Shown here one piece after another: positions 9,336 through 28,176 of a DNA stretch of 64,000 bases. The number at the start of each line of letters is the position of its first letter. The stretch's first letter is position 1. The position numbers and the translations under genes are program-made. The DNA lies in the NCBI RefSeq assembly GCF_005576615.1, contig NZ_CP040330.1:2914001-2978000 (forward strand). The letters are read 5' to 3'. A model generated the notes under the pieces. It made no database searches and was not told where the DNA came from. It saw only the letters and a list, made by a program, of their open reading frames with translations. This stretch comes from Natrinema versiforme. Lineage in GTDB: Archaea; Halobacteriota; Halobacteria; Halobacteriales; Natrialbaceae.

Positions 9336-10429
9336 CGCTCCGGTCCGGTGTCGGCCGCGGACGCAGCATCGGACTCGGCCTCTGTCGCCGCTCGCTCGGA
9401 CGCCGGCTCCGTCCCGGATGCGGCCGTCGTCGCCCCGCCGTCGGCGCGCAACTCCTGTCCGAGCGCGTCCGCGAGGTCGTACTCGGTGCCCGTCAGGATG
9501 TAGAGCACGTCCTCGAGGGGCTCGAGGACTTCGGGGAGGATGCGGACGACGAGGTAGGTGATCCCCAGCAGGGCGACGATCGACAGCGACTGGGCGATGA
9601 AGTTGTGGGCGACGATGTAGGACGTGCGGTCGGCGGGGGCACCCATGAATTCCGTGACGACGTAGACGAGGGCGTCCTGCTGGAACCAGCCCCACGGCGA
9701 GGCGAGCCCGATGAAGACGTTCCGGACGAGGTTGAGGAACCAGATGACGCCGATCGCGAGCGCGAAGGCGGTCGCCTTCCGCTCGAGCGGCGCTTTGACG
9801 GCGGCGATGAGGCCGCCGAAGATGGCCATGCTCCCGATACCGGTACAGGCCGTGATGATGTAGGTGGTCCGGCCGGTCACCGTCTCGTTCGGATCGAAGT
9901 CGAACTTACTCACGTAGCCGTTGCTCCCCTCCGTAAGCCCGGGACTGTGACCGAGCAGTTCCATCCCGAAGTGGGTCTGAGACGCGGTCGTCTCGATCAG
10001 CCACGTGCGAACGACCGGAATCGTCTCGACCGGCAGGTAGATCAGCCCCATGATCGCGACCGCTTTCGAGAGCAACAGGAGCGACTCGCGACCCCGAAAG
10101 AGCAGATACCCGGTATAGACACACAGCGGCAGCGCCGCTATCGTTAACAGGGTCTCGATCGGGCTCTTGACCTCGAGATAGTAGTGGGGGGTGAGCGTGA
10201 CCCAGAAGACGCCGAAGACGACCCACGCGCCCGCAGCGAGGTACCGCGCCGGATCGACAGCATCGAGCCACTCGAGGACCATCGCGGTCACGAACGCGCC
10301 GATCGCGAGCCACGCGAGCGCGTCCGACAGGGTGATCGAGCCGATACTCGCGAAGAGAGGCGTCGCGGGTCCCGCCGCGACGTCGACGACTGCGTCGGGA
10401 ATCGCGGTCGTCGCTGGTAGGGCCGGCAT
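9332..10429 (-). CDS. artA: Archaeosortase A
   Basis: This is a polytopic membrane transpeptidase-like enzyme of the exosortase/archaeosortase family. It removes the C-terminal PGF-CTERM signal of surface proteins and couples this to lipid anchoring. The 365 residues contain about eight hydrophobic segments, the catalytic cysteine in TACTGIGS (Cys195) and the conserved arginine in FLNLVRNVFIG (Arg236). Arg268 and His275 follow in DRTSYIVAHN, and by spacing His275 would take the third active-site position. The last 45 residues are a hydrophilic acidic tail. GTG at 10435 is an alternative start two codons upstream. A matching PGF-CTERM substrate is encoded at 52852-53613. Confidence 0.95.
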   Translation of the reverse strand: MPALPATTAIPDAVVDVAAGPATPLFASIGSITLSDALAWLAIGAFVTAMVLEWLDAVDPARYLAAGAWVVFGVFWVTLTPHYYLEVKSPIETLLTIAALPLCVYTGYLLFRGRESLLLLSKAVAIMGLIYLPVETIPVVRTWLIETTASQTHFGMELLGHSPGLTEGSNGYVSKFDFDPNETVTGRTTYIITACTGIGSMAIFGGLIAAVKAPLERKATAFALAIGVIWFLNLVRNVFIGLASPWGWFQQDALVYVVTEFMGAPADRTSYIVAHNFIAQSLSIVALLGITYLVVRILPEVLEPLEDVLYILTGTEYDLADALGQELRADGGATTAASGTEPASERAATEAESDAASAADTGPER

Positions 10430-10597
10430 ACTCACGTGAATCCGACGAACTCTCCCGCTATCAACTTGACGCCTCGAGACTATCGCCGATTCTGAGAGGG
10501 AAGTATCGCCGATTCGGCGGCCGACAGTCGCGCATTCGGCGGCCGGACGGAGCGCGACCGCGTACCTTTTTGCAACGCTCTCGAAAAGGCTAGCCAT

Positions 10598-11377
10598 ATG
10601 GTCGACGTCCTCGACAACAAGCGGGCCGCGACGCGATTTCGGATCCTCGTCCAGATCGCCGAACGCCAGCCCGCGGTCAGCCAGGGGGAGATCGCCGGGG
10701 AAGTCGGCGTGACGAGTCAGGCCGTCAGCGAGTACATCCGAGAACTCGTCGACGACGGTCTCGTCGAGAAGGAAGGCCGATCGCGCTATCGCGTCACCCG
10801 CGAGGGCGTCGATTGGCTCTTTCGGGCCGCGGACGACGTCCGCCGATTCGCGGACCACGTCACCGGGGACGTACTGGGCGCGATGAGCGAGGACGCCTAC
10901 ATCGCAACCGAGGACATCGAGGAAGGCGAGACCGTCTCGCTGTCGGTCGAAGACGGCCTCCTCCACGCCGCGCCGGGCAGCGAGGGTCCCGCGACCGGTA
11001 TCGCGACCACCGACGCCGCGGCCGGCACCGACGTCGGCGTCACCAGCTTCGAGGGTGTCATGGAACTCGATCCCGGCTCCGTCACCGTCCTGCAGGTCCC
11101 CTCGATCCGAACCGGCGGGAGCCGTGCGATCGACGACGAAACCGTCACCGAGGCCTGCGACGAGGCCGACGTCGTCGTCGCCGCCGGCGTCGAAGCCGTC
11201 GTCGCCTGTCGGCAGGCCGGCACCGATCCCGACGTCACCTTCGCCGTCGGCGACGTCGCGGCCGACGCCGCAAATCACGGCCTCGAGGTGACCGCCGTCG
11301 CCACGACCGACGCCGTCGGCCGAGTCACCGACGCGCTTCGGGACGCAGACGTCTCCTACGAAGTACTCGAGGGATAA
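10598..11377 (+). CDS. Winged-helix transcriptional regulator, MarR-like N-terminus
   Basis: This 259-residue protein is divergent from artA. Residues about 8-75 form a winged helix (RFRILVQIAERQPAVSQGEI, then GVTSQAVSEYIRELVDDGLV, then a wing in RSRYRVTREG). The remaining 180 residues form a soluble alpha/beta domain without a recognised ligand signature (VVVAAGVEAVVACRQAG, VTFAVGDVAAD). A TATA-like ctttttgc at 10566 gives a leaderless or nearly leaderless transcript. The shared intergenic region suggests it may control artA, which is an inference from position. Confidence 0.8.
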   Translation: MVDVLDNKRAATRFRILVQIAERQPAVSQGEIAGEVGVTSQAVSEYIRELVDDGLVEKEGRSRYRVTREGVDWLFRAADDVRRFADHVTGDVLGAMSEDAYIATEDIEEGETVSLSVEDGLLHAAPGSEGPATGIATTDAAAGTDVGVTSFEGVMELDPGSVTVLQVPSIRTGGSRAIDDETVTEACDEADVVVAAGVEAVVACRQAGTDPDVTFAVGDVAADAANHGLEVTAVATTDAVGRVTDALRDADVSYEVLEG

Positions 11378-11493
11378 CCACCGGTCTCGTCGGCGGCTAC
11401 TCACTGCTCGAGCGGCGTGACGAACGTCTCCCTCAATGACTTTAGGTAGAATTCCTTTCCCGTCACGGCCGCTTTCTCGGACTGAGGTCGCGA

Positions 11494-11856
11494 ATGGAAC
11501 CCTCCGACGCGTACAGAGTAATCGCCAGTGTCGACCGACAGTATCTACTCCACGAACTCGTCGAGCACGGCGGAGAGAGTAGCGTGAGAGACCTCTCACG
11601 GAAGGTCGCCATCCGACGACATCGGACCGACAGCGCGAACATCTCCGAGACGGAGATCGATCGGGCTCGCCTCAGACTGGTTCACATCCACCTGCCCCAG
11701 TTACTCGAGCGGGACGTGATCGACGTCGACTGGAACGACGGCGCGGTCGCGCTCGCCGAGGATGATCGCGTCGACCCGCTGCTCGAGGCGGCCGAAGAGG
11801 TCGCGCAGTGGCCGCCGGAACCGCAACTGCCACAGCGGTCGGAGTCCGAGGCGTAG
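11494..11856 (+). CDS. DUF7344-type winged-helix protein
   Basis: This 120-residue acidic HTH protein follows the haloarchaeal DUF7344 pattern: a first helix pair (YRVIASVDRQYLLHELVEHG), a recognition region with SVRDLSRKVAIRR, then RLRLVHIHLPQLLERDVIDV and DWNDGAVALAEDD as the wing. It is one of three such proteins in the window (with 23919-24584 and the duplicated form at 42624-43250). It is probably a DNA-binding regulator with unknown targets. Confidence 0.75.
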   Translation: MEPSDAYRVIASVDRQYLLHELVEHGGESSVRDLSRKVAIRRHRTDSANISETEIDRARLRLVHIHLPQLLERDVIDVDWNDGAVALAEDDRVDPLLEAAEEVAQWPPEPQLPQRSESEA

Positions 11857-11943
11857 CGCGGCGTATTCACTGATCGAGTGACCAGTGTCTCGACCACCGT
11901 CCCGAGTGCCCCGACGAGCGGTGGCTCCGAACGAACGAGACGC

Positions 11944-12711
11944 TTAGCCGATATACCGCAGGTCGTCGTCGGTCGGCACGTCCATCTGCTGTTGCTGTTC
12001 CATCTCTTGGATCTTGCCGATGACTTCCTCCATCTCGTCGGCCCGCTCGTCCAAGGACTCGTAGTCGAGTTCGAAGCCCAGCACTGCCTCGAGCACCTCG
12101 AGGACCGCGCGGGCGCTCTTGGGGTCGACGAGGTAGCCGCTGGTCTCGCCCATCAGGCAGGTCGCGTCGAAGCCGCGGCGCTCGCCGAGTCCGAGCAAGA
12201 GCCCGGAGACGCCGACGATGCCCCCCGCCGGCTCGTCTTCGCGGAACTCGACGTCCGCGTCCTCGAGTGCCTCGAGCAGCGACTCGTCGCTGACGGCCCC
12301 GACGACGGCGTACTCGTCGATGAGTTCGCCGGTCGGAACGCCCCCGAGCGCGTACACCTCGGTCGCGCCGAACTCCTCGGCGACGTCGAGGAAGGCATCG
12401 GTCAGCGTGTAGTGGCCCTCGTTGCTCTGGGCCTGATGATCGCCGGTCAGCAAGAGGAGGTCACGGCCGTCGGGCACCTCGACGGCGTAAATCTCCGCGC
12501 AGGTCAGCGTCGAGACGCCGTCTTCGACGCTCACCTGCGGCGGGAACTCTTGGGAGTAGATTCGCCGTACGAGCGTGCTCTCACCCTCGAGTTCCTCGAG
12601 CAAGTGCTCGACGGCGAGGTTGCCGACGTGCCCGACTCCCGGCAACCCCTCGACGAGGACGGGATCGTCCAGTTCGACCTCGGCGACTGCGTCGATCTCG
12701 AGTTCGTCCAT
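11944..12711 (-). CDS. PAC2-family (proteasome assembly chaperone-like) protein
   Basis: This 255-residue protein has the PAC2 pattern: LVEGLPGVGHVGNLAVEHLL at the start, LLLLTGDHQAQSNEGHY and VYALGGVPTGE in the middle, and GLLLGLGERRGFDATCLMGE then DPKSARAVLEVLEAVLGFEL towards the end. The C-terminus is a glutamine- and acid-rich helix (EMEQQQQMDVP). Archaeal homologues regularly sit next to nop10 and aif2a, as here (6 bases after nop10). The family is suspected to act as a proteasome assembly chaperone; the role in haloarchaea is inferred. Confidence 0.88.
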   Translation of the reverse strand: MDELEIDAVAEVELDDPVLVEGLPGVGHVGNLAVEHLLEELEGESTLVRRIYSQEFPPQVSVEDGVSTLTCAEIYAVEVPDGRDLLLLTGDHQAQSNEGHYTLTDAFLDVAEEFGATEVYALGGVPTGELIDEYAVVGAVSDESLLEALEDADVEFREDEPAGGIVGVSGLLLGLGERRGFDATCLMGETSGYLVDPKSARAVLEVLEAVLGFELDYESLDERADEMEEVIGKIQEMEQQQQMDVPTDDDLRYIG

Positions 12712-16144: not shown

Positions 16145-16675
16145 TTAGTCGACGATTTCGATCTCGGTTCGGTCGACGAGCCCTCGGTCGTCGGCGTCCG
16201 GACGAGTAATCCCCACGTCGATCGTGTACCGTCCGGGATCGACGGGCTCCCACTCGTCGTCGGCGACCCGAATTCGCTGTGGCCACTCCCGTCGGAACCG
16301 TTGCCGCTCGCTTCGGGCGAAGGAAAACGCCGCCGGGCGATCGGGAACCGCTCGAGGGATCCGCGAGGCGTTCCGCAGGCCGTCGACGGCCCAGTACCAG
16401 CGGTTCGGCGATTCGGTGCGGATGCGGATCGGGAACGGGAGCCGATTGCGAAACTCGACGGTGATTTCGACCGGGTCACCGCGCTCGTACCGTCGCTTAT
16501 CCGTGGAGACAGCGACGCTGAGTCCGCGGTGGCGCAGCGCCAGCGGGGTGAACGCGTGGCTGAACGCCGTCCAGTCGATTGTTCGCGGCCCGCGTGCGTC
16601 GTCACCCTCACGTTCCGGAGTGAACGGGTCGTCGTCCGCGCGCTCGAGCGCGCGTGAATCGTAGATCCGTCTCAT
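16145..16675 (-). CDS. Conserved haloarchaeal protein with beta-sandwich domain, last gene of the peptide transporter operon
   Basis: This 176-residue soluble protein has a mid-region that reads like an Ig-like or BsuPI-type sandwich ([20 protein letters not shown], then [12 protein letters not shown], and [18 protein letters not shown] near the end). There is no signal peptide. It starts inside the dppF-like gene with a 4-base overlap (ATGA), so it is translated with the transporter. The function is unknown. Confidence 0.75.
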
Positions 16676-18012
16676 GGCTGACTCCCTCGCGAGGAGTGGT
16701 CGCCGCGCTCGGCCGGGGTGTCGGTTTCGGCGTCGTCCACCTCATACCGGTCGTCGAATCGGTGACAGGCGATCGGGTGGTGATCCGGACCCGCCGATAG
16801 CGCCGGGTCGCTCGTCTCGCAGGGCGTTTCGAACGCCGACGCGAGGCGCTCGCGTGCAGCGTCGAGGTCGCCCGCCGCGGCGGCCTCGAGCGCCTCCGAA
16901 AGCGCGGCCTCCGCGTCGGGATCCTGCAGTCGTCGGGGGATGTCGTAGGCCTCCCTGAGTGTCGCCGTGAGATCCTCGCGGTGATCGGACCGGGAGTACA
17001 GCGTCTCGAGCCCCGCATCGGGATCCGCGTCGGCGAGTCGGGTTCGCAGGGTCATGATCGCGCGGAACGCGCCTTCCTCGAGGTCGTACTCCGCGGGCGG
17101 GATGACCCGCGGACAGCGGGTGTGGAACCGACAGCCCGAGGGCGGGTCGGTCGGCGACGGGACGCTCCCCTCGAGGACGATCCGGTCGCCCGCCCAGCAG
17201 GGGTCGGGTTCGGGGATGGCCGACAGCAGCGCCTCGGTGTAGGGGTGGGAGGGCGAGTCGAAAACTTCGGCGGTCGTCCCGGTTTCGACGAGTTTGCCGA
17301 GATACATCACGGCGACCCGGTCGGCGACGTGTTCGACGACCGAGAGATCGTGGGCGATGAAGAGGTAGGAGAGGTCGAACCGCTCCTGCAGGTCGGAGAG
17401 TAGATTGAGAATCCCGGCCTGCACGGAGACGTCGAGCGCGGACACGGGCTCATCACAGACGATAAGCGACGGTTCGACCGCGAGCGCGCGGGCGATGCCG
17501 ATCCGCTGGCGCTGCCCGCCCGAGAACTCGTGGGGGTACCGGCTCGCGTGGCCGGCCCGGAGCCCGACCGTCTCGAGCAGGTCCCGAACGCGCTCGTCGC
17601 GTCGCTCCGGCGGCACGATATCGTGGACTGAGAGGGCTTCGCCGACGATTTCGCCGACCGTCAGTTGCGGGTTCAGGCTGGTCGTCGGGTTCTGGAAGAC
17701 GTACTGGATCTCGGTTCGCAACTCCCGCAGTTCCCCTCGAGAGCAGTCCGACAGGTCGGTCCCGCGGTACGCGACCGTGCCGCCGGTCGGCTCGAGCAGT
17801 CCAAGCAGCGTCCGGCCGAGCGTCGTCTTGCCGCAGCCGCTCTCGCCGACCAGCCCGAGCGTCTCACCTTCGCGGATCTCGAGGTCGACGCCGTCGACCG
17901 CCCGGACCGTTTGATCGCGGCCGAGCAACCGATCGAGGAGTCCGTCGGCGGTCGTGTAGTGTTTCTCGAGGTCGGTCGCCCGGAGGAGCGGCTCGTCGTC
18001 GGTCGCGGTCAT
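16672..18012 (-). CDS. Dipeptide/oligopeptide ABC transporter ATP-binding protein (DppF type)
   Basis: This 446-residue ATPase has Walker A GESGCGKT, signature [17 protein letters not shown], Walker [14 protein letters not shown] and a C-terminal oligopeptide-transporter domain with the cysteine pattern [15 protein letters not shown]. About 130 further residues follow that domain ([34 protein letters not shown]), an acidic helical extension longer than in most DppF proteins. It overlaps dppD by 4 bases. Confidence 0.94.
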
Positions 18013-19091
18013 CGCGTCTCACCCCCGTGGTCTCGGTCGGATCGCTCGGTCGCCGGCTCGTCTCGTACCCGCACCTCGTAGTCCAGTCCCCCCTTGAGGT
18101 CGCCGGTGTACTCGAGGCAGGCGGCGAGGTGGGCGTCGGGATCCGCCTCGGCCGCCGGCGTCTCCGAGTCCGTCCCGACGAGCGGCGGACTGCGTCTGGC
18201 ACACGCGTCCTCGGCGTAGGGACACCGAGGGTGAAACCGGCAGCCGGTCGGCGGATCGACGAGCGACGGGACTGTACCGGGGACCGTCGTAAGACGCTCG
18301 CGGTCGTCACCGAGACGGGGGATCGAGGCCAGCAGCCCGACGGTGTAGGGATGTTTGGGGTCGTAGTAGAGCTCCTCGACCGGTGCGCGTTCGACGATCT
18401 CCCCGGCGTACTGCACCAGCACCCGATCGCACAGCTCCGCGACGATCCCGAGGTCGTGGGTGACGAGTTGGATCGCCGTGTCCGATTCCCGCGCGAGGTC
18501 GTCGAGCAACTCGAGGATGCCGGCCTGGACGGTGACGTCGAGCCCGGTCGTCGGTTCGTCGCAGACGAGCAGGTCGGGATCGCATGACAACGCCATCGCG
18601 ATGACGGCCCGCTGTTGCATCCCGCCGGAGAACTCGTGCGGGTAGTCCGCGTACCGCGCGGCCGGCTCCGGAATGCCGACCTGCTCGAGGAGGTCGATCG
18701 CTCGGTCGCGAGCCGCGCGGTCGGACACGTCCTCGTGGGCGCGGATCGCCTCGGCGATCTGTTCGCCGACGGTGTAGACCGGGTTGAGCGCCGCGTCGGC
18801 GTCCTGAAACACCATCGCGATCTCGTCGCCCCGAATCTCCCTGAGTTCGTCGGTCGAACACTCGAGGAGGTTCCGGCCGTCGAGGCGGATCTCGCCGCCG
18901 ACGATCTCGCCGGGCGCTCGAATCAGGCGCAGCAACGCGAGGCTGGCGACGCTCTTGCCGGCCCCGCTCTCGCCGACCAGCCCGACCGCCTCGCCCCGGC
19001 GGATCTCGTAGCTGATGCCGTCGACCGCCCGGACCACGCCGTCGTCCGTGTAAAACTGGACGGTGAGATCCTCGACCTCGAGCAGCGACAT
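18009..19091 (-). CDS. Dipeptide/oligopeptide ABC transporter ATP-binding protein (DppD type)
   Basis: This 360-residue ATPase has Walker A GESGAGKS, signature [17 protein letters not shown], Walker [16 protein letters not shown], and the C-terminal oligo_HPY cysteine motif [15 protein letters not shown]. The start [20 protein letters not shown] at 19091 sits at the permease stop with a one-base overlap. It works with the DppF-type subunit as the ATPase pair. Confidence 0.94.
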
Positions 19092-20212
19092 CAGCGCATC
19101 CGCCTCCGTTCGTCGCTCGCGTCTCGGTGCGGGTCGAGGGCGTCGTTGATCCCGTCGCCCACGAGGTTGATCGCCAGCACGAACAGGAAGATCGCGAACC
19201 CAGGGAAGGCGGTGACGTGCCAGTGGCCCTGCACGAGCGAGTCCCGACCCCGCGAGAGCATCGCGCCCCACTCGGCGCTCCCGGGCTCGAGACCGAGTCC
19301 GAGGAAGCCAAGCGCCGCCGCGGCGAGGACGACCGTCCCGACGTTTAACGTCGCCTGCACGACGACCGGCGCGATGGCGTTCGGAACGACGTGTCGCCGG
19401 ATGATGGCCCGATCGGGGACGCCGAGCGCGCTTGCGGCCGTCACGTACTCGCGTTCGCGGACCGAGAGGATTTCGCCGCGTAACAGTCTGGCGTAGCCGA
19501 TCCAGCCGGTGACGACGAGCGCCAGCACCACCGTCCAGAACCCCCCGCCGAGGATCGGGATCGGCTCGAGGATCGGGACGATCGCGATCGCGAGGACCAG
19601 AAACGGGAAGGCGTAGAGCACGTCGACGATCCGCATAACGACCTCGTCGACCCAGCCGCCGAAATACCCCGCGATCGCGCCGAGAGGGATTCCGACACAC
19701 AGCGCCAGTACGACGGCGACGAGGCCGATTCCCAGCGTGTAGCGCCCGCCGACGAGTACCCGGGCGAGTTGGTCTCGCCCAGCCCAGTCGGTTCCGAAGG
19801 GATGGTCCCACGAGGGCGGCGCGTTCGCTGCCCCGACGGCCGGCTGAGACGGATCGTGCGGGGCCAGCGAGAACGGCTGAAGGGTGATCGTGTACTCCGC
19901 CGTCGAGACTTCGATCGGCCGAGCGAAGACCGCGAGCACCGCCATGCCGACGATGATAGCCAGTCCGATCATCGCCGTGCGATTCCGGCGAAACCGGTGC
20001 CACGCGTCCGCGAGGCGGTGGTGCTCCGTTCCCTCGAGTGCGGGTTCCGCCGGCTCCGTCGCTCCCGTTGCCCCAGTCGCCCCCGTCGGTGATTGGGGTC
20101 CCGCATCGGGACGCTCAGGAGAGCCGTCACTGTCGCGCTGCGACGAGTCGGCGTCGTCGAAGCCGACGATGCAAATCCGGCCGCGTTCGGTGGTGGGTCG
20201 TCGGTCACTCAT
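19091..20212 (-). CDS. Peptide ABC transporter permease (DppC type)
   Basis: This 373-residue permease has an unusually long cytoplasmic N-terminus of about 75 residues, rich in Gly-Ala-Thr (TGATGATGATEPAEPALEGT), before the first helix near 78-97. The inner-membrane permease pattern follows: HPFGTDWAGRDQLARVLVGG, the helices, and the EAA loop RREYVTAASALGVPD-like sequence (EREYVTAASALGVPDRAIIR). The start at 20212 is 2 bases from the upstream permease stop. Confidence 0.92.
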   Translation of the reverse strand: MSDRRPTTERGRICIVGFDDADSSQRDSDGSPERPDAGPQSPTGATGATGATEPAEPALEGTEHHRLADAWHRFRRNRTAMIGLAIIVGMAVLAVFARPIEVSTAEYTITLQPFSLAPHDPSQPAVGAANAPPSWDHPFGTDWAGRDQLARVLVGGRYTLGIGLVAVVLALCVGIPLGAIAGYFGGWVDEVVMRIVDVLYAFPFLVLAIAIVPILEPIPILGGGFWTVVLALVVTGWIGYARLLRGEILSVREREYVTAASALGVPDRAIIRRHVVPNAIAPVVVQATLNVGTVVLAAAALGFLGLGLEPGSAEWGAMLSRGRDSLVQGHWHVTAFPGFAIFLFVLAINLVGDGINDALDPHRDASDERRRMR

Positions 20213-20214
20213 AG

Positions 20215-21162
20215 TCAGTATCGAATGCGGGGATCGAGGACGGCGTAGATGATGTCGACGAGCAGGTTCACGAGGACGATCGAGACGCCGATGACCAGCA
20301 CGGCGGCCTGAATGACGGGGTAGTTTCGCTGCAGGATCGACTGGACCAGCAGCCGCCCCATGCCCGGCCACGAGAAGATCTGTTCGACGACGACGGCACC
20401 GTCGACCAGAAACGCCAGCTGGAGGCCGGCGACGGTCACGACCGGGAGCAGGGAGTTCCGCAGAACGTGTTTCAGGATCACCGTTCGCTCGCGGAGCCCC
20501 TTCGCGCGTGCGGTCCGGACGTATCCCGCCTCGAGCTCCCGCAGCATCGACGAACGGAGCAAGCGCGTGACGAGCGCGGCCGAGGCCGTTCCGAGCGTGA
20601 TCGTCGGCAGGAGCATGAACTTCGCCATCGCGAGGCTCGCGAGCGGCGCGTCCGGCGGGATCACCCGGAACCACCCCAGCCGGACGCTGAAGACCAACAG
20701 GAGGACGAGGCCGAGCCAGAAGTTCGGCGTCGCGATCCCGGCGAGGGCGGCGACCCTGCTGAGTTCGTCGGCCGGTTCGCCTCGCTTGACCGCGGCGACG
20801 ATGCCCGCCGGGACCCCGATCGCGAGCGCGAGCAGCCACGCGGCCCCGCCAAGCGCCAGCGTCGCTGGGAGTCGCCGACCGATCGTCGCCGCGACGCTCC
20901 GCCCGGTGACCGGCGACCGCCCGAACTCGAGTGCGAGGGCGTCCCGCAGCCAGAGCACGTACTGTTCCCACACCGGCCGATCGAGGTGGTACTCGGCCCG
21001 GATCGAGGCCTCGGTCTCGGGGCTTACAGTCTGGTAGCCGATGATCGCGTCGACCGGATCGCCCGGCAGCGCGTGCAGAAACGAGAACGTCAGGACGGTC
21101 ACGCCCAGGAGGACCGGAACGGCGACCAGCAGCCGCGTGAGGACGTATCTCCCGAGGGACAT
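20215..21162 (-). CDS. Peptide ABC transporter permease (DppB type)
   Basis: This 315-residue permease begins YVLTRLLVAVPVLLGVTVLT and continues FLHALPGDPVDAI, the DppB opening pattern. The EAA loop is AGYVRTARAKGLRERTVILK. Six hydrophobic segments are visible. It follows the binding-protein gene with a gap of 7 bases. Confidence 0.94.
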   Translation of the reverse strand: MSLGRYVLTRLLVAVPVLLGVTVLTFSFLHALPGDPVDAIIGYQTVSPETEASIRAEYHLDRPVWEQYVLWLRDALALEFGRSPVTGRSVAATIGRRLPATLALGGAAWLLALAIGVPAGIVAAVKRGEPADELSRVAALAGIATPNFWLGLVLLLVFSVRLGWFRVIPPDAPLASLAMAKFMLLPTITLGTASAALVTRLLRSSMLRELEAGYVRTARAKGLRERTVILKHVLRNSLLPVVTVAGLQLAFLVDGAVVVEQIFSWPGMGRLLVQSILQRNYPVIQAAVLVIGVSIVLVNLLVDIIYAVLDPRIRY

Positions 21163-21169
21163 CTATGGG

Positions 21170-22816
21170 TCAGTCCGGACGGACGTATTCGTCGGCGATT
21201 CGCTCTCGAAACCCCTCGTCGGCGTACGTCTCGAGCAGCGGTGAGATCGGCGTGTAGGTCGGCTGCCCGTGCCCGTGATAGACGTTCTCGACGATCGCCT
21301 CGCGTGGAATCAACATGTTACAGCCCCGGCGGACCTGCTCGTCGGTAAACGGCTCGCGATAGAGCGGGTAGATCACCAGATCGAACCCGCCGCCGACGTG
21401 ACGATCGACGTCGTATGCGTCGTCTTCGCCAAGTTCGGCGAGACTCGCCGACGGCACGCCGTCGCTGAAGTCGATATCGCCGGCCTCGAGCGCGCCCCGT
21501 CGAGCGGCCGCCTCCGTGATGATCTCGAGGGTCACGGTTTCGATCGGTGCCGGGGCCGGGACCCTCTCGTCGCCGTCGAACCAGTAGTCCTCGAACCGCC
21601 TCAGCCGCCAGTGATCGCCCGCTCGGTAGTCGTTGAACCGATAGGGACCGGTTCCGACCGGCCGCGACGCGAGGTCGAGGTCGCCGTCGATCGCCGCCAT
21701 CGGGACGATCGGGAGGTCGAACAGTCGCCGTTCGAAGGGGCCGTACTTCCGCCAGCAGCGGATGTCGATCGTGTAGTCGTCGACGATCTCGCTGCCGTCG
21801 TACCAGTCGGTGACGTCCGACTCCCTGGCTTCGCCCTCGTAGCGTTCGAACGAGCCCTTGACGTGTGCAGCGGTCAGTTCCTCGCCGTTGTGAAAGCGGA
21901 CGCCTTCTCGGAGGGCAACCCGGTAGGTCGTCGAATCGAGTTGCGTCCAGTCCGCGGCCAACACCGGTTGGACCGTCCCGTCGAAATCGACGCCCGTCAG
22001 CCCCTCGTAGACGAGCTGCGTCGCCCGACTCGAGGCGGTGTCGTTCATCGAGACCGGATCGGTGGTCGAAACGTCGCCGCCGAGGTCGCCGACGAACTCG
22101 TTGCCGTCCTCGAGATCGGTGTAGACGCCCGCCCACGGGGCATAGATCGCGGTGTAGGTCCCGGACTCGAGCGGATACGCCCGCCAGCCGCTGACGCTGT
22201 CGGCGTCCCAGACGTGTGCCGCTTCGCTCACGCGGACGAACGACGCCGGGGAGTCGGCGACCAGTTCCTCCTGTAACTGCTGGTAGATCTCGACCCGCTC
22301 GTCCGGGGATGTCTCCTCGAGGCCGTCGTCGATGTATTCGTCGACGGTCTCGCTGGCGTAGTGGTTGATGTTGAGCCCGGTGGGCGTGTGATTGTCGGAG
22401 TGAAACAGCGTATTGACGTAGTCGTCGGGGTCCCAGCCGCCGGTCCAACTGACGATGAAGAGGGCGTTTTCCTCGTCGTCGGCCGCCGTGTTCAGCATCT
22501 CGAGATAGGTCGTCCACTCGTATTCGCTGATCGAGATATCGAAGAAACCGGTGTCCTCGAGTTCGGTCGCGAGGAGTTGTGCGAACCGGCTCCGCTCGGT
22601 GTCTTCGGTGATCGCGATCGTCGTCTCGAACGGCGGCTCGATGCCGGTCGCCTCGAACCCCGTCTGAATCAACTCCTCGGCCGGGCCGTCGGCTTCGATA
22701 TCGTTACTGCGAACACAGCCCGCCAATCCGGCGATGCCGGCCGTGCCCACGCCCTTCAGCAGCGACCGCCGCCGCAGGCGATGGCGGTCACTCGGCCCGA
22801 CGCGGTTCTCTGCCAT
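21170..22816 (-). CDS. Circularly permuted family-5 substrate-binding lipoprotein of the peptide transporter
   Basis: This 548-residue Tat lipoprotein has RRRSLLKGVGTAGIAGLAGC with lipid-attachment Cys34. The two halves of the family-5 (DppA/OppA) fold are in swapped order. Residues about 45-235 match the part that is normally C-terminal (YEWTTYLEML, SWTGGWDPDDYVNTLFHSD, DERVEIYQQLQEELVADSPA). Residues about 245-548 match the normal N-terminal part (PVSMNDTASSRATQLVYEGL, YRVALREGVRFHNGEELTA, RPVGTGPYRFNDY, VRRGCNMLIPREAIVENVYH). The protein ends where a normal one would continue into the present start. ATG at 22816 is preferred; 22831 would add five residues. It is first in the operon and defines the transported ligand, likely peptides. 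Confidence 0.92.
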   Translation of the reverse strand: MAENRVGPSDRHRLRRRSLLKGVGTAGIAGLAGCVRSNDIEADGPAEELIQTGFEATGIEPPFETTIAITEDTERSRFAQLLATELEDTGFFDISISEYEWTTYLEMLNTAADDEENALFIVSWTGGWDPDDYVNTLFHSDNHTPTGLNINHYASETVDEYIDDGLEETSPDERVEIYQQLQEELVADSPASFVRVSEAAHVWDADSVSGWRAYPLESGTYTAIYAPWAGVYTDLEDGNEFVGDLGGDVSTTDPVSMNDTASSRATQLVYEGLTGVDFDGTVQPVLAADWTQLDSTTYRVALREGVRFHNGEELTAAHVKGSFERYEGEARESDVTDWYDGSEIVDDYTIDIRCWRKYGPFERRLFDLPIVPMAAIDGDLDLASRPVGTGPYRFNDYRAGDHWRLRRFEDYWFDGDERVPAPAPIETVTLEIITEAAARRGALEAGDIDFSDGVPSASLAELGEDDAYDVDRHVGGGFDLVIYPLYREPFTDEQVRRGCNMLIPREAIVENVYHGHGQPTYTPISPLLETYADEGFRERIADEYVRPD

Positions 22817-23171: not shown

Positions 23172-23741
23172 TCAGTGGTCGCCGTCTTCGTCGACGATAA
23201 CGACCTCGCCGTCGACGACGTCGACGTTGATCAGCGTCTTGACGTCGTAGCCCGCGTCGTCGACCTTGTTCTCGCCGCCGACCTTCTTGATGACCGCGAC
23301 CGTGTCGATGACCTCGGCACCGATCTCGTCGAGGGCCTCGAGCACCGACGCGAGCGTGCCGCCGGTCGAGAGCACGTCGTCGAGCACGAGCACGCGCTCG
23401 CCCTCGCGGACATCGTTGATGTACATCTCGTTCTCCGAGTAGCCGGTCTTCTGAGAGATCGCGACCTCGTCCTTGAGGCCGTACTGGCGCTTGCGGATGA
23501 CCGTCAGCGGAATGTCGGTCATCAGGGAGACAGCCGTCGAGATGTGAATGCCCATCGCCGCGGGCGTGACGATCCGGTCAACGTTCTCGAGTTCGGCCTT
23601 CCGGATGATTCGGATGACGATCTCCCGCAGGAGCGTCGGATCGAGCTTCGGGACGCCGTCGCTGATCGGGTGAACGAAGTAGTGATAGCCGTTCTTCTCG
23701 ATGATCGGCGCCTCGAGGAGCGACTGCTTCAGTTGATCCAT
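23172..23741 (-). CDS. hpt: Hypoxanthine/guanine phosphoribosyltransferase (archaeal, APRT-like)
   Basis: This 189-residue purine salvage enzyme transfers phosphoribose from PRPP to a purine base. The PRPP-binding motif is [20 protein letters not shown] (about residues 120-140), and the conserved [18 protein letters not shown] and [13 protein letters not shown] regions match the archaeal HptA group. [12 protein letters not shown] at 23741 is the natural start; the longer frame adds unrelated residues. The acidic C-terminus ([14 protein letters not shown]) is typical of halophiles. Confidence 0.92.
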
Positions 23742-23918
23742 GTCGTAGGTCGGTTGGTAGCGGAGTAAAAGTTGACGATACGAGCGAAGTGGCGCCACCT
23801 GCGAACGTCCCGCATTCGCCGCGGCGGGTCGGAGCGCTTCGGCACCGACTCGAGTCGAGACGCTCGTTTTCGCGCCCGCAAGGCGGCCGAATCGATCGGG
23901 TCTCGAGCGCCGCCGGCG

Positions 23919-24695: not shown

Positions 24696-25865
24696 TCAGT
24701 CGGCCGCCGCGGAACCGCACACCGCGGCGATCGAGTCGGCGATTTCGCCGCCCAGCCCCGCCTTCGTCCCCTCGTAGCGGGCGGCGTCGTTCGCGTGGAC
24801 CAGCAGCGCCGACGTTTCCGCCGCACCCATCACGCTCGCGTCGTTTGCGACGACGAAGGCCAGCCCGGCCCGCTCGAGCGTCTCCCTCGCCCGCTGGATC
24901 ATGGCCCCCTCGTCACCGGACGTTTCGGTCTTGAAGCCGACGATGGGGAGGTCGGGGTGCTCGGAGCGGATCTCGTCGATGAGCTTCGGGGTCGGCTCGA
25001 GTTCGAGCGTAAGCTCCTGTCCCGAACGGATCTTCTCGTCGCTCGTCTCGACGGTGTAGTCGCCGATCGCGGCCGCCGAAACGAGCGCGTCGGCCTCGGC
25101 GCAGGCCTCGCGGGTCGCGTCGAGCATCTCCGCGGCGCTCTCGACCGCGCGGACATCGGCGTAGGGGACCGCCGGCCCGTCGTGGACGAGCGTGACAGTT
25201 GCCCCGCGGACGTAGCAGGCCTGCGCGACCGCGCGGCCCATCTTCCCCGACGAGCGGTTCGTGATGATCCGAACGGGGTCGATCGACTCGCTGGTCGCCC
25301 CGCTGGTGACGACGACGTGCTCGCCCTCGAGCGGCCGGTCGCCGGCCGCGCGGGCCGTCTCGCAGACGATCGCCTCCTCGCTGGCGATCTTGGCCTTCCC
25401 CTCTTCGAGGCGCGGGTCGACGAAGTCGACGCCCCACCCCTCGACGGTCTCGATTGCCTCGAGCACGCCGGGGTGGTCGTACATCGGTTCGTGCATGGCC
25501 GGCGCGATCACGACCGGCGTCTCGGCGCCGAGCGCGGTCGTCGCACACGTGGTGACCGGCGTATCGTCGACGGCACCGGCGATCTTCCCGACGGTGTTGG
25601 CCGTCGCGGGCGCGATCACGAACACGTCGGCCCAGCCGTCGTAGCCACAGAGGTCGACGTGTTCGACGCTCCCCGTGATCTCCGTGACCACCTCGTTCTC
25701 GGTCGCGAACTCGACGGCCCACGGGTGGATGATCCCCTGCGCGCTGTCGGTCATCACTCCGCGAACCGCCGCACCCTGCCGCCGCAACTCGTGGGCCAGT
25801 TCGACCGTCTTGACGGCCGCGATCGACCCCGTCACCCCGAGCGCGACGTTGACTCCCTCGAGCAT
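24696..25865 (-). CDS. coaBC: Bifunctional phosphopantothenoylcysteine decarboxylase/phosphopantothenate-cysteine ligase
   Basis: This 389-residue coenzyme A biosynthesis enzyme has an N-terminal flavoprotein decarboxylase domain (NVALGVTGSIAAVKTVELAH, VIAPATANTVGKIAGAVDD, IAPAMHEPMYDHP). The C-terminal ligase domain contains VVTSGATSESIDPVRIITNR then SSGKMGRAVAQA, and the AAIGDY and TPKLIDEI motifs. Length and order are standard for CoaBC. Confidence 0.95.
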   Translation of the reverse strand: MLEGVNVALGVTGSIAAVKTVELAHELRRQGAAVRGVMTDSAQGIIHPWAVEFATENEVVTEITGSVEHVDLCGYDGWADVFVIAPATANTVGKIAGAVDDTPVTTCATTALGAETPVVIAPAMHEPMYDHPGVLEAIETVEGWGVDFVDPRLEEGKAKIASEEAIVCETARAAGDRPLEGEHVVVTSGATSESIDPVRIITNRSSGKMGRAVAQACYVRGATVTLVHDGPAVPYADVRAVESAAEMLDATREACAEADALVSAAAIGDYTVETSDEKIRSGQELTLELEPTPKLIDEIRSEHPDLPIVGFKTETSGDEGAMIQRARETLERAGLAFVVANDASVMGAAETSALLVHANDAARYEGTKAGLGGEIADSIAAVCGSAAAD

Positions 25866-26102: not shown

Positions 26103-27122
26103 ATGAACGTTGCAATTCTCGCTCACGAGAAGTTCCCGGATCGGGCGAAGACCGCGCTCGGCGTCCTCCGATATGCCGACCACGATGTCGTCGCCGTCCT
26201 CGATCGAGAGACCGCCGGGCAGCGCGTGACCGATTTCGTCCCCGACGTACAGGACGCACCGATCGTCGCCGGAATGGACGACCTCGAGTCCGACGCTGTC
26301 GACACCCTTCTGATCGGGATCTCCCCGATCGGCGGCGAGTTCGACGAGAGCTGGCGCGACGACGTTCGGACGGCCCTCGAGGACGGCTGTGACGTGATCT
26401 CGGGACTGCACTACTTCCTCGCCGAGGACGAGGAATTCGCGCGGTTGGCGGCCGAACACGGCTGTGAGATCCGCGACGTACGGAACCCGCCGGCCGACCT
26501 CTCGGTGGCCGACGGCGTCGCCGGCGAGGTCGATGCCGAGGTAATCCTCACCGTCGGGACGGACTGCTCGGTCGGCAAGATGACGACGACGATGGAACTG
26601 GCTCGCGACGCCCGCGCGGCCGGCCACGACGCCGCCGTGATCCCGACCGGCCAGACCGGGATCATGATCGAGGGGTGGGGTAACCCGATCGACCGCGTCG
26701 TCAGCGACTTCACCGCGGGCGCGGTCGAGGAGATGATCCTCGAGAAGGGCGACCAGCACGATTACCTGTTCGTCGAGGGACAGGGCAGCATCGTCCACCC
26801 GGCGTACTCCCCGGTCACGCTGGGCATCCTCCACGGCTCGATGGCGGATAAACTGGTGCTCTGTCACGAGGCCGGGCGCGAGGAAATCCACGGCTACGAG
26901 TCGTTCTCGCTGCCGTCGATCCCGACCTACGTCGACCTCTACGAGAGCATCGCCGCACCGGTCGCGGAGAGTCAGATCGTCGCCGGCGCGATAAACACCG
27001 CCGGTCTCGCGGACGACGCGGCGGCCCGTGATGCCGTCGAGGAGTACGCCGACACCCTCGGCGCGCCCGCGACCGACGTGATCCGCTTCGATACCGACGA
27101 CGTGCTCGAGGCGTTGCTCTAG
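26103..27122 (+). CDS. dgcN: DUF1611-family protein, D-glutamate N-acetyltransferase type
   Basis: This 339-residue protein has a P-loop-like motif in the middle, VGTDCSVGKMTTTMELARDA, followed by AVIPTGQTGIMIEGWG, and later FVEGQGSIVHPAYSPVTLGI. These are the marks of the DUF1611 family. Members partnered with a dipeptide-epimerase-like gene have been described as DgcN, acetylating D-glutamate before racemisation. Here that partner follows after one base. The symbol rests on family and context; the true acyl acceptor is not shown by sequence. Confidence 0.8.
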   Translation: MNVAILAHEKFPDRAKTALGVLRYADHDVVAVLDRETAGQRVTDFVPDVQDAPIVAGMDDLESDAVDTLLIGISPIGGEFDESWRDDVRTALEDGCDVISGLHYFLAEDEEFARLAAEHGCEIRDVRNPPADLSVADGVAGEVDAEVILTVGTDCSVGKMTTTMELARDARAAGHDAAVIPTGQTGIMIEGWGNPIDRVVSDFTAGAVEEMILEKGDQHDYLFVEGQGSIVHPAYSPVTLGILHGSMADKLVLCHEAGREEIHGYESFSLPSIPTYVDLYESIAAPVAESQIVAGAINTAGLADDAAARDAVEEYADTLGAPATDVIRFDTDDVLEALL

Positions 27123-27123
27123 C

Positions 27124-28176
27124 ATGGCCCTCGAGACCTCGTTCGAGCGGCGCTCGCTGCCGCTCGAGTACCCGTTCGGGATCGCCCGCGGGACGACGAC
27201 CGAGACCGAGGCCGTCTTCGTCCGGATCGAAGATGGCGATGGAACGACCGGGATCGGTGCCGCCACGCCGTCGGCCCACTACGGCGAGACCGCCGCGACC
27301 GTCGAGGCGGTCCTCCCGGACCTGCTTTCGGTCGTCGAATCCGTCGGTGATCCCCACCAACTCGAGCGGATCGAGCGCCGCATGCGCGAGACGGTCCGGC
27401 GGAACCCGGCCGCCCGGACCGCGGTGAGCATCGCTCTGCACGACCTCGTCGCGAAGCGACTCGCGGTCCCGCTCTATCGCTACTGGGGGCTCGACCCCGC
27501 GGAGACCCTCGAGACCTCGTACACGATCGGGCTCGACGACCTCGAGACGATGCAGGAGAAGACCGAGACGGCCGTCGATCGGGGCTACGGCACGCTGAAG
27601 GTCAAACTCGGCACCGATCGGGATCTCGAGATCGTCCGGACGATCCGCTCCGTCGCCCCCGACGTCCGGCTGTTCGTCGACGCGAACGAGGCGTGGACGC
27701 CCCGCGAGGCGGTCGCGAAGATCGACCGGCTCGCCGAGTACGACCTCGCGTTCGTCGAACAGCCCGTCCCCGCCGAGAATCCCGAGGGGCTGCGGTTCGT
27801 CTCCGAGCGCTCGAGCCTGCCGATCGCCGCCGACGAGTCCTGCGTGACGCTCGCGGATATTCCGCGGATCGCGGACCGCTGTGACATCGCGAACCTGAAA
27901 CTGATGAAATGCGGCGGGCTGCGGGAGGCCAGACGAATGATCAGCGCCGCCCGCGCCCACGGGCTCGAGGTGATGTGTGGCTGCATGACCGAGTCGAACG
28001 CCTCGATCGCAGCGGCCTGTCACCTCGCGCCGCTGCTCGACTACGCCGACCTCGACGGCTCGCTGCTGCTGGCCGACGACCCCGCCGACGGCGTTCCGAT
28101 GCCCGACGGCCGGATCGACCTCGCCGGCCTCGAGCGCCCGGGAACGGGTGCGGTTCTCGATGGCTCGCTCGACTGA
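27124..28176 (+). CDS. dgcA: Enolase-superfamily epimerase, dipeptide epimerase / N-acetyl-glutamate racemase type
   Basis: This 350-residue enzyme of the muconate-lactonizing subgroup has the general acid/base lysine pair in TLKVKLG, metal ligands in LFVDANEAW, FVEQPVP and AADESC, and the second lysine region NLKLMKCGG. Relatives are L-Ala-D/L-Glu epimerases and DgcA N-acetyl-D-glutamate racemase. Being one base downstream of a DgcN-type gene favours the second. Product: probably N-acetyl-L-glutamate, which feeds glutamate pools. Confidence 0.87.
   Translation: MALETSFERRSLPLEYPFGIARGTTTETEAVFVRIEDGDGTTGIGAATPSAHYGETAATVEAVLPDLLSVVESVGDPHQLERIERRMRETVRRNPAARTAVSIALHDLVAKRLAVPLYRYWGLDPAETLETSYTIGLDDLETMQEKTETAVDRGYGTLKVKLGTDRDLEIVRTIRSVAPDVRLFVDANEAWTPREAVAKIDRLAEYDLAFVEQPVPAENPEGLRFVSERSSLPIAADESCVTLADIPRIADRCDIANLKLMKCGGLREARRMISAARAHGLEVMCGCMTESNASIAAACHLAPLLDYADLDGSLLLADDPADGVPMPDGRIDLAGLERPGTGAVLDGSLD

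Follow-up and report, generated by a model that had tools for sequence, protein, structure and literature searches.

The closest counterpart that we found described for the protein reported here is TpMglB-2 (Tp0684) of Treponema pallidum, a lipoprotein and solute-binding protein (SBP) of an ABC importer that is naturally circularly permuted (PMC4990184). The accessible part of that paper presents TpMglB-2 as a glucose-binding cluster B protein, with Type Ic / Cluster Bc as its proposed class, and the authors propose there that the permutation is an adaptation to tethering. In the literature that we searched, most of it open-access, the TpMglB-2 class was the sole natural permuted SBP and no permuted family-5 SBP was reported; PMC2588589, in its accessible part, tabulates SBP_bac_5 and cites a permutation paper. 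Natural circular permutations seldom come to light together with normal-order orthologues at the same locus. The haloarchaeal operon described here carries the normal and several permuted orders, with readable joints, so that the origin, the number of events and the consequence become testable, and it offers a direct test of the idea raised for TpMglB-2 that permutation re-sites the membrane tether.

The window that we analysed is a stretch of 64,000 nt from Natrinema versiforme (GCF_005576615.1, NZ_CP040330.1, positions 2,914,001-2,978,000 of the forward strand). A first-pass annotation had proposed that one of its genes (Table 1) encodes a circularly permuted family-5 SBP with the C-terminal half first and the N-terminal half last, and Pfam, phmmer and an HMM of our own agree on this order. 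In the family search, SBP_bac_5 (PF00496) scored 203.3 bits against a cut-off of 32.4 and was the sole Pfam family up to E = 1; the match came in two stretches whose order is swapped relative to the canonical N-to-C order of the family, the best one placing residues 281-534 on profile positions 1-257 of 368. The best PDB chain in phmmer was 5u4o, on which residues 248-531 aligned with chain positions 53-336 (domain i-E 3.7e-25) and residues 58-189 with positions 358-484 (domain i-E 3.8e-9). Our HMM was built on six normal-order haloarchaeal relatives and queried with the 565-residue stop-to-stop ORF, whose numbering is that of the protein plus 17; ORF residues 63-235 fell on model positions 401-564 and residues 244-546 on 79-379. 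NCBIfam profiles too show the reversed order, and in no alignment did the halves appear in normal order. The best of the NCBIfam equivalogs (NikA, DppA, GsiB, Opp4A and others) reached 137 bits against 600, below cut-off, a threshold that a permuted protein is not easily able to reach.

Table 1. Features of the permuted SBP gene, its operon and the neighbouring markers, in window coordinates.
Feature	Coordinates	Strand	Basis
Circularly permuted family-5 SBP, lipoprotein, 548 aa	21170..22816	-	ATG start, ORF, profile and structure prediction
Residues 1-34: twin-arginine signal (RRRSLLKG) and lipobox LAGC, lipid cysteine C34	22715..22816	-	sequence
Residues 45-232: canonical C-terminal segment, placed first; opens with the post-cut helix of normal proteins	22121..22684	-	
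Residues 233-239: joint, old C-terminal tail fused to old N-terminal strand	22100..22120	-	
Residues 240-548: canonical N-terminal segment, placed last; closes with the pre-cut helix of normal proteins	21173..22099	-	
DppB-type permease	20215..21162	-	BPD_transp_1, 153 bits
DppC-type permease	19091..20212	-	BPD_transp_1, 135 bits, and OppC_N
DppD-type ATPase	18009..19091	-	ABC_tran and oligo_HPY
DppF-type ATPase	16672..18012	-	ABC_tran and oligo_HPY
176-aa protein, operon end	16145..16675	-	no Pfam family
Phosphoribosyltransferase upstream, marker of the syntenic slot	23172..23798	-	Pribosyltran
CoaBC-type flavoprotein, outer marker of the syntenic block	24696..25865	-	DFP and Flavoprotein

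The gene end at 22816, the lipid cysteine and the motifs quoted in that annotation were all found as given. The signal reads RRRSLLKGVGTAGIAGLAGC, and its match to TIGR01409 is weak (12.8 bits, below the cut-off of 16.7). Compared with four relatives, dN/dS lay between 0.17 and 0.38 in both halves, by a simple Nei-Gojobori estimate on GC-rich DNA. Both halves of the permuted SBP are under purifying selection, which rules out a pseudogene, and no essential part of the protein has been lost or duplicated.

Structure prediction, another of the checks that had been suggested, returned one confident protein. With an alignment of 59 rows, AlphaFold2 gave a mean pLDDT of 84.7 and a pTM of 0.84; pLDDT stayed at 50 or above except in the signal (residues 1-40) and in two stretches adjoining the joint, 215-224 and 226-231. 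For each of the 50 structures listed by VIA-align, the first 300-odd residues of the solved chain matched the model, and the match covered only the part of the model from residues 228-240 to 543-548 (Z 22-25). Tiling on 5u4o put model residues 237-548 on chain positions 42-347 and the first part on 344-483; on 4oet, the second part covered 1-304 and the first part, folded alone, 305-452. Residues 36-240 folded alone had a mean pLDDT of 73.9, poor at the end of the segment, and since the first-half matches to solved chains had an rmsd of about 10 (9.8 for 4oet) and a Z of at most 9.3, the evidence lies in the chain ranges and not in the quality of fit. Not all of the structures matched by this isolated half are family-5 SBPs. 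The window protein is thus predicted to have the two-lobe fold common to solved family-5 SBPs.

The site of the cut is where we part from the first-pass annotation, which had placed it at the hinge-side segment. It lies instead in a lobe-2 loop, between ..IADEY and the DPEKA-type helix, which corresponds to roughly 320-333 of OppA and to 304/305 of NikZ; by the domain limits of OppA, this is a surface loop inside lobe 2 (domain III), away from the hinge. The post-cut helix forms residues 45-57 of the AlphaFold2 model. The reading of a permuted family-5 SBP in which both lobes remain complete is upheld by the family search, the structure prediction, the tiling on solved structures and the normal-order orthologues found in the same slot.

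We call an SBP window-type where it is cut as in this protein and later-cut where the cut falls about 20 residues further on. Pfam matches confirm that the gene belongs to a dppABCDF-type set, as had been claimed, the SBP being accompanied by two permeases that match BPD_transp_1 and two ATPases that match oligo_HPY, and the block of operon and upstream markers is conserved among relatives' loci. The table of 69 SBP ORFs adjoining DppB, which leaves out the window's own SBP, holds 32 normal, 17 later-cut and 16 window-type proteins, one cut at model position 143, two N-only and one C-only; by the rule used, L224, L263, L264, L270 and L284 have no SBP beside DppB, and L219 lies outside the operon. 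A phosphoribosyltransferase gene lies within 4 kb upstream in 15 of the 16 window-type, 7 of the 17 later-cut and 8 of the 32 normal rows (in one of these eight at 2955 bases) and in the single 143-cut row. Because it occurs upstream of all four types, these loci represent one slot with four SBP topologies: the slot before dppB holds normal proteins, the window cut, the later cut and a cut near the N-terminus. The 176-aa protein at the end of the operon is likewise kept with normal, window-type and later-cut SBPs.

Elsewhere in the window, on the plus strand at 26103-28173, a DUF1611 gene precedes one of the enolase superfamily (MR_MLE), and the two resemble the D-glutamate pair DgcN/DgcA. We dropped a D-glutamate link, as no literature on it was found and the genes were not seen in the block at the 34 loci examined. 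A frame break splits the normal-order SBP in the Halolamina rubra draft (L057:7878-13866), where DppC and DppD likewise match piecewise; these breaks are probably errors of the draft sequence.

Over the wider sample, 220 ORFs were classified into 130 normal, 85 cut near model position 400, one cut at 143, three N-only and one C-only, a set drawn from similarity searches that is biased accordingly and is no census of permuted against normal proteins. Window-type proteins start at model positions 394-405 and end at 378-396, so that the helix is the new N-terminus. In most other permuted members the start lies at 413-438 and the end at 408-418, and the helix forms the new C-terminus; a few ends are less clear. 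Around the cut site the normal relative L228 reads ..MGDEYLGYDPEKAATLLEEGFNEAGVEAPFQTKI, while the window protein ends in ..IADEYVRPD and starts, past its cysteine, with ..DIEADGPAEELIQTGFEATGIEPPFETTI. The later-cut L059 ends in ..EYDPEAAAELLEEVIEDHDLE and starts with ..DPTFHVQLEV, and the two new ends, when joined, give the uncut normal sequence, which in L044 reads ..EYDTERAGELLDEVGEDLGLEYPLEVTLE. The joint of L059 holds ETDVSDLEEGGTL, which resembles the EEVDFADLQEGGTL found between the lipid cysteine and the first strand in L044. Judged by this likeness, the joint retains a remnant of the old tether, as would be expected from duplication, fusion and trimming. The three later-cut members L045, L059 and L060 carry an insert of about 60 residues past the first strands of the N-terminal segment (near 312-370 in L045), and this insert subfamily has both normal and permuted members in the same operon slot. 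The 143-type cut was found once in the 243 genomes searched, in an orthologue in the same slot (L048:2909-4909, minus strand) of the metagenome-assembled genome G038.

From its sequence and predicted model, the window protein very probably serves a Dpp/Nik-type ABC importer as its functional solute-binding lipoprotein and is a natural circular permutant; the place before dppBCDF, the intact frame and the predicted fold argue for ordinary SBP function. It would form the usual two-lobed Venus flytrap, bind its solute in the same cleft and dock on DppBC as its relatives do. In OppA and DppA, the Asp of the W..DY motif binds the peptide amino group. The window protein has Gly at this position (WTGGWDPDD, 22421-22447, minus strand); a free-amino peptide is therefore not a necessary ligand, and the solute may be something other than an ordinary peptide. 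As for its origin, we infer a tandem duplication of the SBP gene, an in-frame fusion of the C-terminus of the first copy to the N-terminus of the second, and trimming that left the old secretion signal before a new N-terminus in the lobe-2 surface loop; no duplication intermediate was seen among the loci observed.

Such a rearrangement would leave the protein lipid-anchored through lobe 2 instead of lobe 1, on a shorter tether, so that it would be held differently over the permease. Tether lengths were taken by motif, HMM interpolation being unreliable for this purpose. Among the normal members, of which 21 out of 29 were measured, the median stretch from the lipid cysteine to the domain was 33 residues; the eight unmeasured rows include L265 and L266, which are short by eye. 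In permuted members the median was 11.5 for the window cut (16 of 17 measured, two of the 16 values, 2 and 125, being pattern misfires) and 11.5 for the later cut (12 of 17). Shorter tethers fit selection on anchoring, with very few independent origins behind the comparison. Anchoring is unable to explain all cases, since the signals of the alphaproteobacterial proteins L069, L297 and L301, which belong to a further permuted clade (clade B), show no lipobox by eye. We call the placement of the anchor the likeliest reason why the permuted form was retained, yet only tentatively, as neutral fixation is about equally likely. On that account, tandem SBP duplicates were fused and trimmed into an equivalent permuted protein that was kept by drift with no gain, and there is a real, if less than even, chance that this is what happened. 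Normal and permuted forms share the operon slot and the partner genes, and the fold is predicted unchanged, all of which favours neutrality; the recurrence in one operon, the consistent presence in each clade and the shorter tethers would be unexpected from drift alone, yet they are compatible with it.

The export route has also to be weighed, since Tat export, in which folding precedes membrane crossing, might free the folding order, and permutations barred to Sec-exported SBPs would then be tolerated in haloarchaea. In keeping with this explanation, a pattern search gives a twin-arginine motif together with a lipobox for 37 of the 38 window-type rows, all 7 later-cut rows and 32 of the 34 rows of clade B. 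However, normal-order relatives from the same organisms carry the identical signal type (31 of 31 long-insert rows), and among the alphaproteobacterial members L069 and L301 (one of the three plasmid members) have no twin-arginine by eye, L298 is ambiguous and L297 has one. We consider this explanation unlikely.

How often the permutation arose was assessed on trees of 93 and 67 SBP rows, chosen from those available, with all sequences set to normal order. The 93-SBP tree has six changes between normal and permuted order, and the more careful 67-SBP tree, with the columns around the cut removed, has seven. AU tests rejected a single clade of window type and later cut (p=0.002) and a single clade of window type and clade B (p=0.00277). 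The window type alone was not rejected as a single clade (p=0.20), the free tree splitting it in two, and neither was the later cut alone (p=0.30). A second tree used DppBCDF, concatenated for 65 operons, of which 30 have a normal SBP, 17 a window-type one, 17 a later-cut one and one an SBP cut at 143. The second SBPs L215_8383, L283_13037 and L285_11353 and the N-only ORF L288_2195 were left out by hand, as were the N-terminal ORF of L057 and L225, with its frame of 944 aa; L046 was put in manually, and the DppF of L048 was left out at a contig end. On this tree the window type is one clade (SH-aLRT 99), sister to eight normal-order operons (98), and the later cut needs four changes, a pattern that repeated permutation might explain, as might swapping of SBP genes among operons.

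A single ancient permutation, followed by reversions or gene replacement, could in principle cover all permuted members, and it is in its favour that the later-cut group was not rejected as one clade, although the permease tree needs four changes there, which may be gene swapping. The two AU rejections, cuts that fall on opposite sides of one helix and the sister position of the window group to normal-order operons argue against it, and we regard it as quite improbable. A careful count from the sequences suggests instead at least three independent permutations (window type, later cut and clade B), with a fourth should L048 prove genuine; of these, two or three fall in one operon slot. It is possible, and we hold this joint claim as a tentative one, that the SBP gene of one orthologous haloarchaeal operon underwent at least three in-place permutations, each at a different loop, that a separate family-5 permutation is shared with alphaproteobacteria, and that the cause is a short-tether shift of the anchor improving delivery to the permease. 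If true, family-5 SBPs would provide a natural series for convergent circular permutation.

Within the family of the window's genome, the window-type permuted SBP occurs in 44 of 125 genomes, unbroken in 43. These include 25 of the 29 genomes of the genus and 19 genomes from eight other genera, where identity to the window SBP is 44-53%. An assembly error or a decayed gene, for which one might cite the congener G094 with its gene in two pieces but nothing in the window gene itself, is dismissed in practice by the recurrence of an intact permuted gene in 43 of 125 genomes and by the purifying selection on both halves.

Clades B and C have permuted members throughout the haloarchaea, and a permuted-order profile found matches at E 1e-30 in 132 of 146 genomes, although normal-order SBPs gave partial matches to it and window-type proteins may be included. 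Three of the seven SBP_bac_5 genes in the window's genome are permuted; the other two lie in tandem, at about 600 aa each (G000:C2:2571521-2576113; L037:7477-9330, 10333-12123), and belong to another permuted clade than the window SBP. In alphaproteobacteria, clade B was found in Rhodophyticola and on plasmids of Ketogulonicigenium vulgare, Nitratireductor and Neorhizobium galegae; a Meiothermus match, checked too, has normal order, and one scan of viral contigs found no viral carrier of a permuted SBP. Clade B operons at L297, L298 and L299 adjoin M28 or M20 peptidase, hydantoinase/oxoprolinase or creatininase genes, a hint as to the solutes of this clade. When the clade B protein L069 was searched against the PDB, no permuted family-5 structure appeared among the best 60 of 82 matches, and the top stretch of each lay from residue 200 on and fell on the first two thirds of the chain. 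In three annotated records, permuted SBPs are named just "ABC transporter substrate-binding protein", ordinary names that conceal the rearrangement.

To conclude, the window protein has in common with the family-5, or cluster C, SBPs (DppA, OppA, NikA, GsiB and AppA) PF00496 and the dppBCDF operon, as well as the predicted two-lobe fold and, by motif, lipoprotein export; it differs from the DppA/OppA class in its reversed segments, in new termini in a lobe-2 loop and in an anchor that would sit on lobe 2. Its later-cut orthologues L059, L060 and L045 and the 143-cut L048 have the same operon slot and partner genes, the later-cut proteins being cut after the DPEKA-type helix and the window SBP before it. 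The permuted family-5 SBPs of clade B also carry the C-terminal segment first, but are cut about 20 residues later, with the helix C-terminal, and form a separate clade (AU p=0.003). TpMglB-2 and the window SBP are both natural circular permutations of SBPs; going by the accessible part of PMC4990184, TpMglB-2 is not a family-5 protein and is cut elsewhere, and the window protein for its part matches SBP_bac_5 only in Pfam, with no cluster B sugar-binding homology of the TpMglB-2 type. Normal-order orthologues occupy the same operon slot in the case of the window SBP, whereas none is described for TpMglB-2 in that part of the paper. Natural permutation of an SBP is thus precedented by TpMglB-2, and its recurrence in one operon slot is the striking new part.
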